Positions 8,958 through 14,104 of a stretch of DNA of 14,247 bases are shown in pieces (position 1 is the first letter of the stretch; the number at the start of each line of letters is the position of its first letter). The DNA lies in the NCBI GenBank assembly GCA_030618495.1, contig JAUXDE010000039.1, positions 1-14,247 on the forward strand. Reading direction: 5' to 3'. The notes under the pieces were generated by a model. It had not been told where the DNA came from and searched no databases. It saw nothing but the letters and a program-made list of their open reading frames with translations. This DNA comes from Clostridia bacterium (GTDB lineage Bacteria; UBA6262; WVXT01; JAUXBS01). A program made the position numbers and the translations under genes.

Positions 8958-10613
8958 TTATTTTTCATAGGTAGAGTAATAATAAGGTGTGTACGCTTCA
9001 AATTCAGCCCCGCAGGTGTCAACAACCTTGTAAATCGCCTTAATCCCTCTTGACAGGCGGAGTTTTCGCACCCCAAACTCATCCATGTTGAGCATCTTTC
9101 CCAGCTGCCTGTCAGAAAAACCATACTCCTTTGCTTCGCGCAACAAACTTTCCGGAATGCTTTTTCCCGGTTTATCGCGATATTTCTTAATCTTTAATTC
9201 AAGATCTATTATATCTTTAATGTTACTAAGGAACCATTTGTCTATCATGGAAAGTTCATGGATTTCATTAATCCCGATTCCCGCAAGTATTGCATACCTT
9301 ATATAAAATATCCTCTCTGAATTAGCTACCCTCAGCTTATTCCGGATCTCCTCGCCTGTAAGTTCCTCCGCAGTTACCCCGATATCATCCAGTCCATTCA
9401 CTCCGGTTTCCAGTGACCTCAAAGCCTTCTGCAGGGATTCCTTGAAGGTCCTGCCTATTGCCATGGTTTCACCCACCGATTTCATTGAAATGTTAAGAAT
9501 ATCTTTAGCACCTTTGAATTTCTCAAAAGTAAAACGGGGCACCTTGACAACACAGTAATCTATAGTTGGTTCAAAACACGCAGGTGTCTTTCTGGTAATA
9601 TCGTTGGGAATCTCATCCAGGGTGTAACCAACGGCAAGTTTTGCGGCTATTTTCGCTATAGGAAAACCCGTTGCCTTTGAAGCAAGGGCTGAGCTTCTTG
9701 ATACCCTCGGGTTCATTTCTATTATCACCATCCGCCCGTCTTTCGGGTTTACCGCAAACTGTACGTTTGAACCCCCGGTATCAACGCCTATCTCCCTCAT
9801 AACGGCAATGGCGGCGTCCCGCATATTCTGGTATTCCTTATCGGTAAGCGTCTGCGCCGGCGCGACAGTGATACTGTCACCCGTATGCACGCCCATGGGG
9901 TCCAGGTTCTCGATGGAACAAATTATTACCACGTTGTCCTTTGAATCCTTCATCACCTCAAGTTCATATTCCTTCCAGCCCATTATTGATTCTTCTATAA
10001 GAATTTCGCTTATCATGCTTGTCTTAAGCGCGTATGAAGCTAATTTTTTGAACTCCTCGAGGTTGTAAGCCACTGCGCCGCCCGTACCTCCCAGCGTGAA
10101 ACTTGGCCTTATAATCGCAGGAAAACCTATCACTTCAATAATCTCAAGAGCTTCCTTAATATTGTGAGCGTTTCCGCTTTCCGGCAAGTCAAGCCCTATT
10201 TTTTTCATTGCCCTTTTGAACTGTTCCCTGTCCTCGGCTTTTTTAATTGCCTTCCTGCTTGCCCCTATTACCTGGACATTGTACTTTTTAACAATCCCCT
10301 TCCTGCATAACTGCGTGGTAACATTAAGAGCTGTCTGTCCGCCAAGTGTCGGCAGTAATGCATCCGGTCTTTCCTTAGCGATTATTTCCTCAATTACTTC
10401 GACAGTTATAGGTTCAATATACGTCCTGTCGGCTATCATGGGGTCAGTCATGATAGTGGCAGGATTGCTGTTAACCAGGATTACCTTGTACCCTTCCTCC
10501 CTCAGCACTTTGCATGCCTGGGTGCCCGAATAATCAAACTCGCACGCCTGCCCGATAACGATTGGACCCGAGCCTATCAGAAGTATTTTCTTAATATCAG
10601 TTCTCTTTGGCAT
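8958..10613 (-). CDS. carB: Carbamoyl-phosphate synthase large subunit, N-terminal half only
   Basis: The protein matches the first half of CarB, which forms carboxyphosphate and carbamate from bicarbonate, ATP and ammonia. By my count Arg129, Glu215, Glu299 and Asn301 fall at the same numbers as the ATP-grasp residues of the Escherichia coli enzyme ([39 protein letters not shown]). The oligomerisation region follows and the chain ends at residue 551 with [18 protein letters not shown], then TAA. A normal CarB continues there into a second ATP-grasp domain and an MGS-like domain, about 1,070 residues in all. The ending is clean and glmS follows at once, so this looks like a natural split gene (as in some archaea and Aquifex) rather than decay; the partner must lie elsewhere if it exists. 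carA is 33 bases upstream. Confidence 0.93.
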
Positions 10614-11887: not shown

Positions 11888-13228
11888 TTAAACCAGTCCC
11901 TGGTCCAGCATGGCATCGGCAACCTTCACGAATCCACCGATATTTGCGCCTTTTACGTAATCTATCCAATCACCTTCCTTGCCGTACTTTGCGCATGTAT
12001 CGTGAATGGCAAGCATGATATCATGCAGCTTGTTATCCACTTCCTCGCGGGACCAGGACATCCTCTGGCTGTTCTGTGACATCTCAAGTCCGGAAGTTGC
12101 AACACCGCCGGCATTGGCTGCCTTGCCCGGGGCAAAGCAAATTTTAGCGTCATGAAATACCTTGACGCCTTCCGGAGTCGTAGGCATGTTTGCGCCTTCC
12201 CCGACAGCCGCGCATCCGTTTTTAACCAGAGCTTCTGCATCGTCCCCGCTTATTTCATTCTGGGTAGCAGATGGAAAGGCGATATCGCATTTAATATCCC
12301 AGGGCCTCTTCCCTTCAAAGAACTTGCAATTATATTTCTCGGCATATTCCTTGATGCGTCCGCGTTTCACGTTCTTAAGCTCCATGACGAACGCCAGTTT
12401 CTTTTCATCTATTCCCTTCTCGTCATACACCGTGCCGTTTGAATCCGAGAGCGTAACGCACTTCCCGCCCAGCTGGTTCACCTTTTCAATGGTGTACTGC
12501 GCAACGTTACCCGAACCGGAAACCGTACATACTTTCCCTTTAAGAGACTGCTTCTTTTCCTTTAACATCGCATCAACCAGGTACACGCACCCGTAACCGG
12601 TTGCTTCCGACCTGATCAGGCTTCCTCCCCAGTTAAGGCCTTTCCCGGTAAGTATCCCGGTAAACTCATTTTTAAGCCTCCTGTACTGGCCGAACATAAA
12701 TCCGATTTCCCGGCCGCCGACACCGATGTCACCTGCAGGGATATCTGTATCGGGTCCGATGTGCCTGGAAAGTTCCGTCATGAAACTCTGGCAGAACTTC
12801 ATTACCTCGTTGTCTGTCTTACCCTTGGGGTCAAAATCGGCACCGCCCTTGCCTCCACCCATGGGAAGGGTGGTAAGGCTGTTCTTAAACACCTGCTCAA
12901 AAGCCAGAAATTTCAGTATACCCAGATAAACTGTCGGGTGCAAACGAAGCCCTCCCTTGTACGGGCCTATGGCGCTGTTCATTTCAATGCGGAAACCACG
13001 GTTAATCTGGACCTCACCCCTGTCATCAAGCCATGGAACACGGAACATAATTACTCTTTCAGGTTCCGCTATTCTCTCCAGGATTTTAAAATCAAGGTAT
13101 TTCCTGTTCTTTTCCACGAAGGGCATTACGGATTCTGCCACTTCCAGGACCGCCTGGTGAAACTCGGGCTCTCCGGGATTCTTCTTTATTATTCCTTCCA
13201 TGAATTTCTTTACATTTGCGCTTGACAT
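11888..13228 (-). CDS. gdhA: Glutamate dehydrogenase, hexameric GdhA type (probably NADP-dependent)
   Basis: GdhA reversibly aminates 2-oxoglutarate to glutamate and is a direct ammonium assimilation route. The 446-residue length is typical. Substrate-site motifs are GPYKGGLRLHP (about 88-98) and LPMGGGKGGADFDPKG with catalytic Lys127. PAGDIGVGGREIG carries Asp167, and the Rossmann loop is SGSGNVAQ (about 237-244) followed by LSDSNG. The C-terminal part has PSATQNEI and EGANMPTTPE. The loop and SDS pattern favour NADP(H), but this is inferred from family habits. AGGAGG (13237-13242) is a perfect ribosome-binding site eight bases from the ATG, suggesting strong expression. It follows the GAF-ANTAR gene by 15 bases and should be on the same transcript. 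Confidence 0.96.
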   Translation of the reverse strand: MSSANVKKFMEGIIKKNPGEPEFHQAVLEVAESVMPFVEKNRKYLDFKILERIAEPERVIMFRVPWLDDRGEVQINRGFRIEMNSAIGPYKGGLRLHPTVYLGILKFLAFEQVFKNSLTTLPMGGGKGGADFDPKGKTDNEVMKFCQSFMTELSRHIGPDTDIPAGDIGVGGREIGFMFGQYRRLKNEFTGILTGKGLNWGGSLIRSEATGYGCVYLVDAMLKEKKQSLKGKVCTVSGSGNVAQYTIEKVNQLGGKCVTLSDSNGTVYDEKGIDEKKLAFVMELKNVKRGRIKEYAEKYNCKFFEGKRPWDIKCDIAFPSATQNEISGDDAEALVKNGCAAVGEGANMPTTPEGVKVFHDAKICFAPGKAANAGGVATSGLEMSQNSQRMSWSREEVDNKLHDIMLAIHDTCAKYGKEGDWIDYVKGANIGGFVKVADAMLDQGLV

Positions 13229-13243
13229 ATCTAATCCCTCCTT

Positions 13244-13954
13244 TTATTTACTTGGTTTTTTCCTCATATCGTAAGATAAGACAATCGCCTCAGCCACCTC
13301 CCGCATTGTCTTGCGGTTGTCCATTGAATATTTCTGTATCCTAAGATATGCCGCTTCCTCGCTTAAACCTTCATCCTTCATCAGTATACCCTTTGCTCTT
13401 TCAATCCTCTTCCTGGCTTCAAGCTCTTCCTGAATCACTCTTGTTTTAACCATCAGCTCAGTATTTTCAATAGCCACAGCCGCCTGGTTGGCTATCGAGG
13501 TCAGGACATTTTTTTCCGTGACCGTAAAATCATGCGGCCCGGACGTATAACAGTTTATCACACCGATGACCCTGTTTTTTACTTTGAGCGGCACACATAA
13601 CAGAGAAGACAAACCTTCCTTCCTGGCTATTTCCTTGTACTTGTATTCCTTGCTCTTAATTATGTTCTTTAAAGCTATCGGCTTCCTGTTCTTTATGACC
13701 TTCCCCGTTATACCCTCTCCAAGCTTCAGCGGAAGCTTCTTGTTATACGCCTCGCTAATACTCTGGGTCGCCTTGATAACGAGTTCCTTCTTTTTCTCGT
13801 CAATGAGCATTATCGAGCATATATTAGACTCCATGACCTGGGCTGTCGCAACCACTATAAGCCGGAGTATGTCCTCTAAATACTGTTCAGAAGTTATTGC
13901 CTTACTTATCTTTGTAAGAACCTTTATCTGTTTTTCATAGAGCTTGTTATCCAT
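13244..13954 (-). CDS. GAF-ANTAR transcription antitermination regulator
   Basis: The 236-residue protein begins MDNKLYEKQIKVLTKISKAI. A GAF sensor domain spans about residues 22-165 (LKLGEGITGKVIKNRKPIAL; LCVPLKVKNRVIGVINCY; LTSIANQAAVAIEN). A short charged helix, likely coiled coil, leads to an ANTAR RNA-binding domain at about 178-226. ANTAR hallmarks are RIERAKGILMKDEGLSEEAA followed by YLRIQKYSMDNRKTMREVAE. ANTAR proteins bind paired hairpins in nascent RNA and stop terminator formation. No receiver domain is present, so the signal probably enters through the GAF domain; its ligand is unknown. I chose the ATG at 13954 because AGGGA lies upstream and because the alternative in-frame GTG at 14002 falls inside the leader terminator loop. 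It precedes gdhA and follows an ANTAR-type leader, so it probably controls its own operon. Confidence 0.92.
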   Translation of the reverse strand: MDNKLYEKQIKVLTKISKAITSEQYLEDILRLIVVATAQVMESNICSIMLIDEKKKELVIKATQSISEAYNKKLPLKLGEGITGKVIKNRKPIALKNIIKSKEYKYKEIARKEGLSSLLCVPLKVKNRVIGVINCYTSGPHDFTVTEKNVLTSIANQAAVAIENTELMVKTRVIQEELEARKRIERAKGILMKDEGLSEEAAYLRIQKYSMDNRKTMREVAEAIVLSYDMRKKPSK

Positions 13955-13980
13955 AAAATACTTTCCCTGTCTACATATAC

Positions 13981-14022
13981 AAAAAGACGCCCTGTATCCC
14001 ACTAGATATCAAGAACGCCTTT
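13981..14022 (-). terminator. Leader intrinsic terminator ahead of the GAF-ANTAR gene
   Basis: In the minus-strand RNA, AAAGGCGUUCU (14012-14022) pairs with AGGGCGUCUUU (13983-13993), eleven base pairs including three G-U pairs. Above a small asymmetric internal loop, UAUC/GAUA (14005-14008 with 13995-13998) caps the structure with the loop UAGUGG. The U-run of five ends at 13981. The ATG of the regulator lies 26 bases downstream. The 5' arm is the same sequence that forms the loop and 3' arm of the upstream antiterminator-like hairpin, so the two folds exclude each other. Confidence 0.72.
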
Positions 14023-14057
14023 GTTCTATTATTCACTATAGCACTCACATTGTGCCA
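14012..14057 (-). promoter_or_regulatory. Candidate ANTAR dual-hairpin RNA motif (antiterminator)
   Basis: Two successive hairpins can form in the minus-strand RNA. Hairpin 1 (14039-14057) is UGGCAC/GUGCUA with one G-U pair and the loop AAUGUGA. Hairpin 2 (14012-14027) is AGAAC/GUUCU with the six-base loop AAAGGC. They are separated by 11 bases. Known ANTAR targets have two hairpins with six-base loops carrying A at position 1 and G at position 4. Hairpin 2 fits exactly; hairpin 1 keeps A1 and G4 but its loop has seven bases. Hairpin 2 overlaps the terminator 5' arm, as the antitermination model requires. The adjacent gene encodes an ANTAR protein. The assignment was made by eye, without a covariance search. 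Confidence 0.7.
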
Positions 14058-14075
14058 TTAAATTATTTCAGTGGT

Positions 14076-14104
14076 ATTAAAGTAAATCTATTAACGTTTG
14101 TCAA
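14076..14104 (-). promoter_or_regulatory. sigma70-type promoter of the GAF-ANTAR-gdhA operon
   Basis: On the minus strand a consensus TTGACA (14099-14104) is followed by exactly 17 bases and TTTAAT (14076-14081), which differs from TATAAT at one base. A-T-rich sequence lies upstream. Transcription would begin near 14069, about 12 bases before the first regulatory hairpin, giving a leader of roughly 115 bases. No activator site is evident, which suits control by termination rather than initiation. Confidence 0.75.

Follow-up and report, generated by a model that had tools for sequence, protein, structure and literature searches.

Does the regulator encoded at one end of this stretch of DNA control the transcription of its own gene? 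The region under study (hereafter the window; 14,247 nucleotides) makes up contig G000:C89 of a genome of 1.69 Mb, and its last minus-strand gene codes for a GAF-ANTAR protein that is preceded by a leader with two short hairpins and a terminator. An earlier note had read this arrangement as a positive feedback loop. In our assessment, the leader is very probably an ANTAR-type transcription attenuator at which the window's own GAF-ANTAR protein would open read-through into its own gene and into gdhA, the gene for glutamate dehydrogenase.

The genes of the locus

The GAF-ANTAR gene (13244..13954, minus strand) encodes 236 amino acids, and its ATG at 13954 is supported as the start codon by orthologous proteins that begin with MDNKLYEKQI or MDNISYKEQI. 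Both domains announced by the earlier note are matched by Pfam (GAF, 8.5e-23; ANTAR, 7.3e-21), the ANTAR domain (PF03861) with 74.1 bits against a curated cut-off of 27.3. Fifteen bases downstream lies gdhA (11888..13228, minus strand), assigned from its open reading frame and sequence.

The solved structures most closely related to the GAF domain include GAF domains of phosphoenolpyruvate-protein phosphotransferase (nitrogen-PTS enzyme I; 3ci6, 3trc). Such GAF domains sense 2-oxoglutarate or glutamine, and that of the window protein may likewise sense the nitrogen status of the cell. The ANTAR domain was compared residue by residue through an alignment to the EutV structure 6wsh. The EutV residues that hold G4 and the RNA loop (Arg142, Lys143, Lys149, Glu160, Tyr164, Met172, Arg175; PMC8934654) are all kept, as R181, K182, K188, E199, Y203, M211 and R214. 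Lys147 is replaced by Arg and Asn173 by Asp; the replacement of Arg168 and Arg177 by Q207 and T216 was counted against assigning the protein to the ANTAR mode of action.

Downstream of gdhA, and in the same direction, the minus strand of the window (13244-3993) carries carA, carB, glmS, purF and pyrG, all of which encode enzymes that use ammonia or glutamine. In the congeneric genome G001 (L146), open reading frames of corresponding lengths are arranged in this order as well. The genes from gdhA to pyrG possibly form a single long operon for nitrogen metabolism, in which 158 bases separate gdhA from carA. The carB gene (8958-10613, minus strand) encodes only 551 amino acids, the N-terminal half, and is followed by glmS. 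Since carB also has 548 amino acids in G001, a split gene is likelier here than a frameshift. No further copies of the leader motif were found within the window, for instance before carA or glmS.

Architecture of the leader

All elements of the leader lie on the minus strand. Its promoter consists of a -35 element TTGACA (14099..14104) and a -10 element TTTAAT (14076..14081) at a spacing of 17 bases, and thus agrees with the consensus at 11 of 12 positions; a simple promoter scanner missed it because this scanner demands an A at position 2. TTGACA is equally placed in the relatives G001 and G032, where the -10 elements read TTTAAT and TATAAT, respectively. Hairpin P1 (GGCAC-AATGTGA-GTGCT; 14040..14056), supported by the covariance models R1 and R2 and by paired changes, has a stem of five pairs (seven with the flanking pairs) and a loop of seven bases, AATGTGA, with A1 and G4. 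Hairpin P2 (AGAAC-AAAGGC-GTTCT; 14012..14027), the putative antiterminator, is likewise recognized by the covariance models and carries the hexaloop AAAGGC, again with A1 and G4, on a five-pair stem. The linker between the five-pair stems measures 12 bases (10 with the extended P1 stem), inside the range of known ANTAR targets, which is 5-12 in the eut leaders and 2-25 in an actinobacterial set (PMC3369931, PMC8164766).

The predicted intrinsic terminator (13981..14022), supported by folding and by equivalents with paired changes in orthologous leaders, comprises a stem-loop (14022-13986) and a run of five T (13985-13981). Its 5' arm is made of the loop and the 3' arm of P2, so that P2 and the terminator are mutually exclusive. 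The predicted energies are -3.7 kcal/mol for P2 and -15.2 kcal/mol for the terminator (z of the whole leader, -2.6), and folding of growing transcripts predicts that P2 forms first and then gives way to the terminator; both results fit termination as the default. The near-consensus promoter, the two hairpins and the mutually exclusive terminator with its U-run, as described in the earlier note, were thus all recovered. Both hairpins have at least three pairs and A1/G4 in their loops, and the terminator overlaps P2; the loops, however, measure six bases in P2 and seven in P1, where the characterised ANTAR targets have six in both, which counts against the ANTAR reading. As far as its sequence goes, the window leader matches an ANTAR target in all tested respects except the size of the P1 loop.

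Conservation of the leader

A dual hairpin of such grade together with a T-run occurs once in the window, against 0.03 expected from dinucleotide shuffles (both strands). The earlier note had proposed a search with a covariance model and an alignment of orthologous leaders, and both bore out its reading. Rfam 15, at a permissive threshold, offered no ANTAR family and no relevant match for the window and three relatives. The model R2 was built from nine leaders of other genera with the window and its congener left out: its top match genome-wide is the window leader (E 1.3e-6), which scores 43.8 bits against 6.6 for the next site inside the window. A strict descriptor missed many true sites.

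The GAF-ANTAR protein shares 88% identity with its counterpart in the congener G001 and 72% with that in G032, a member of another family. The leaders of G001 (P1, AGCAC-AAAGTCA-GTGCT; P2, AGAAC-AAAGAC-GTTCT) and G032 (P1, GATAC-AACGTTA-GTATC; P2, GAAC-AAAGGC-GTTC) keep the promoter, the seven-base P1 loop, the P2 hexaloop, A1/G4 and a terminator beginning within the P2 loop; paired changes are seen across the orthologous leaders in P1 and in the terminator stem. Among ten leaders, three of the five P1 pairs have changed on both sides, and the covariation score exceeds that of 494 of 500 shuffles and collapses once the partners slide. Because the presence of hairpins was the reason for choosing these ten, more weight falls on the search with the leave-out model and on the tests of association described below.

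The paired changes also bear on a quite different reading of P1, in which GGCAC...GTGCT would be a sigma-54 promoter (GG-N10-GC) and no RNA hairpin at all. The letters TGGCAC and TGC have the look of such a promoter, and nitrogen genes do lie downstream, but the GG-GC spacing is 12 instead of the strict 10, the GATAC...GTATC of G032 keeps the pairing while losing the sigma-54 letters, and a sigma-70-like promoter stands upstream. We give this reading practically no credence and continue to regard P1 as an RNA hairpin.

Association with ANTAR genes and nitrogen genes across genomes

The leader is linked to ANTAR genes well beyond the window. At 80 GAF-ANTAR loci, taken from named genomes of Omnitrophota in the main but also of Aerophobetes, Desantisbacteria and others, the model matched 57 times, in 52 cases on the same strand as the regulator gene (sign test, 3e-11). 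In a sample of 145 genomes from the phylum of the Omnitrophota genome G065, searched at a match threshold of E 0.01, 21 genomes contain a leader match, and every one of these possesses an ANTAR gene, compared with 99/145 overall (P 1.5e-4). Of the 27 matches, seven immediately precede an ANTAR gene; three others follow one immediately, and another follows one at a distance of 0.8 kb. Those matches that were inspected singly have promoter, P1, P2 and T-run.

The gene behind the motif is gdhA in L087, L093, L047 and G002; elsewhere it is amt, type I or type III glnA, gltB or the gene for a glutamate-synthase-domain protein, or that for a BBP2 porin. Most ANTAR targets described before are nitrogen genes (PMC3369931), and the nitrogen genes found here agree with that range. 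The BBP2 porin genes (PF07642; L079:8597-9877 and L054:12380-13696) fall outside the nitrogen enzymes.

Several leaders depart from the simple layout. Tandem leaders, in which one hairpin-plus-T-run unit is closely followed by another, occur at L033 (8687 and 8879), L147 (G002:C51; 6437 and 6505) and L148 (G004:C37; 84177 and 84205). At L037:10356, L094:13139 and L097:17218, P2 and the terminator are found but P1 is not clearly recognizable, an arrangement that would agree with a claim in the literature that one hexaloop alone can serve as a target. Furthermore, the element TTACCA-N13-TTTACTTG(TA), with a nearly always fixed spacing, lies 5-45 bases upstream of many dual-hairpin leaders (L037, L048, L054, L089, L094, L097, L103, L111 and others; e.g., L094:15674). 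The window leader lacks it. Exact copies number between 0 and 4 in a genome, and two riboswitches are preceded by the element as well, one for c-di-AMP (L165) and one of the c-di-GMP-I class (L170). Given its rarity and its position before riboswitches, we take it for a probable promoter, unusual in type, that serves attenuated leaders.

The seven-base loop of hairpin P1

The seven-base P1 loop, which the earlier note had suspected to define a variant, recurs in G001, in G032 and in most of the related regulator leaders. To count loop sizes, sites were selected by P2 and terminator alone and the best upstream hairpin of any loop size was taken, the only count that is free of a bias towards A1/G4. 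P1 loops with A1/G4 number 9 for size six and 11 for size seven, against 0.6 and 0.46 in shuffles (a 15- to 24-fold excess), and those of sizes 4, 5, 8, 9 and 10 stay at chance level at these sites. A model-guided table gave 29 seven-base and 28 six-base P1 loops, although the picking behind it favours A1/G4. The seven-base consensus A-A-N-G-U-U-A corresponds to the hexaloop A-N-N-G-U-A with one base added after G4; a joint MAFFT alignment misaligned the six- and seven-base loops and was left out of this comparison.

The excess over shuffles speaks directly to the view that P1 and P2 are parts of an ordinary terminator region, with attenuation of another kind (e.g., by leader translation) or a shield from upstream transcription as its function. 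Short hairpins are indeed common, and a terminator alone would explain the T-run. Neither point, however, would account for A1/G4 loops of just two sizes or for the linkage of the leader to ANTAR genes across genomes; a promoter directly upstream places the terminator inside the transcript, and orthologous leaders vary in length and sequence between the hairpins, which argues against a conserved leader peptide. We consider this view very improbable and retain ANTAR-type attenuation as the function of the leader.

Since the dual hexaloop belongs to the published definition and to the curation rules (PMC8164766), the window leader is a variant, not a canonical member. On sequence grounds, P1 with seven loop bases is a variant of the ANTAR target that has been conserved. 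It is present in 15 of 16 leaders of the regulators' own genes as opposed to 5 of 26 that precede other nitrogen-related genes (Fisher's test, 2.5e-6, or 2.9e-5 with one leader counted per locus), a preference to be taken as an observation and not as a proven rule, given that the genes were assigned by hand, some from their first residues only, and that the genomes are related. Whether the seven-base P1 constitutes a second class of ANTAR recognition, preferred at own genes and with another threshold of self-activation than the hexaloops of amt, glnA and gltB, is a tentative idea that we hold to be possible but rather doubtful.

Probable self-control and the second ANTAR protein

We propose the following course of events, in which the mechanism would most likely be ordinary ANTAR antitermination, as for EutV. 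RNA polymerase would start near 14069 and, by default, stop at the terminator at about 13981. With active GAF-ANTAR protein present, the ANTAR dimer would bind the nascent RNA first at P1, then at P2, via the flipped-out G4; with P2 held, its loop and 3' arm would be kept out of the terminator, and the polymerase would read on into the GAF-ANTAR gene and gdhA. Only 26 bases separate the T-run from the start codon, which leaves little room for another promoter, and the regulator would therefore promote its own synthesis, in a positive feedback that draws on basal read-through. Binding by an ANTAR protein, termination, the direction of the effect and self-control are what we infer for the window leader, the last of these from gene order.

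The genome contains a second ANTAR protein, a GAF-GAF-ANTAR protein encoded on contig C39 that also matches the PtsP and NifA models. Close behind its gene and nadE lies a probable second ANTAR leader (G000:C39:13145-13185; L145), which precedes an open reading frame of 245 amino acids, amt and the genes for P-II, glnA and a glutamine amidotransferase. Its match is weak (E 0.13-0.19), with a P1 loop of eight bases (ATCGAACA) and a P2 loop, GAAGGC, that starts with G; in G001, a search for a homologous second leader found only coding-like matches.

The C39 protein could in principle be the main opener of the ANTAR switch, and the window protein a downstream member of a cascade instead of its own activator. 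This is favoured by the presence of two ANTAR genes in the genome and by the position of the C39 gene, which likewise lies ahead of leader-bearing nitrogen genes. Yet in G159 and in G193 a single ANTAR gene was detected, and that gene is preceded by the leader; of the findings at hand, none argues more strongly for self-control. Moreover, leader and regulator gene have stayed together in G001 and G032. We regard the cascade as unlikely and control of the leader by the window's own protein as the preferred reading. The reading of the earlier note, in which the protein governs its own gene and gdhA, is supported with a qualification: the conservation, the co-occurrence with ANTAR genes and the nitrogen targets support the switch, whereas the action of the window's own protein on it we can only infer, because of the second ANTAR protein. 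Self-control is also not universal, as the leaders of the family-f2 relatives sit at gdhA (G002) or nuoE (G004) and not at the regulator gene.

Comparison with known ANTAR systems and implications

ANTAR antitermination has been worked out on hexaloop targets in Firmicutes and Proteobacteria, with EutV, AmiR and NasR as the few proteins studied. The amiR gene lies inside the operon that AmiR opens (amiEBCRS), so that positive self-control has a precedent; amiR has a distal position there, and AmiC keeps AmiR inactive, whereas in the window the regulator gene comes first. The amiE leader of Pseudomonas aeruginosa shares with the window leader the dual hairpin and the terminator (PMC3369931). 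The closest parallels are offered by EutV and the eutP, eutG, eutS and eutA leaders of Enterococcus faecalis (PMC3369931, PMC8934654), with two small A1/G4 hairpins, a P2 that overlaps the terminator and is held by the EutV dimer, the same RNA-contact residues and nitrogen-related genes; EutV, in contrast, belongs to the REC-ANTAR response regulators and has a kinase as its partner, and the eut leaders have hexaloops in both hairpins. NasR and the nasF leader of Klebsiella oxytoca likewise combine ANTAR antitermination and an A1/G4 hexaloop with nitrogen assimilation (PMC3369931), but NasR has a nitrate-sensing domain where the window protein has GAF, and nasF has hexaloops only. In the predicted ANTAR regulons of Desulfotomaculum (PMC3369931), leaders also stand before genes for glutamate synthase, glutamine synthetase, an ammonium transporter and P-II; their published motif is a dual hexaloop, whereas the present set comes from Omnitrophota and uncultured lineages related to them, and its P1 loop frequently has seven bases.

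As of the 2012 ANTAR paper, the GAF-ANTAR class had no characterised example. Our literature search found no paper on ANTAR leaders in Omnitrophota; none clearly dealt with the control of gdhA by ANTAR proteins, and the terms used brought up none on ANTAR autoregulation. Published search models and curation rules based on hexaloops would tend to miss the seven-base variant, which raises the question of why the ANTAR dimer would accept six or seven bases in P1 while P2 stays at six. In our view, these leaders show ANTAR antitermination as a form of nitrogen control in uncultured lineages, the Omnitrophota and their neighbours, where it would be run by GAF-ANTAR proteins.
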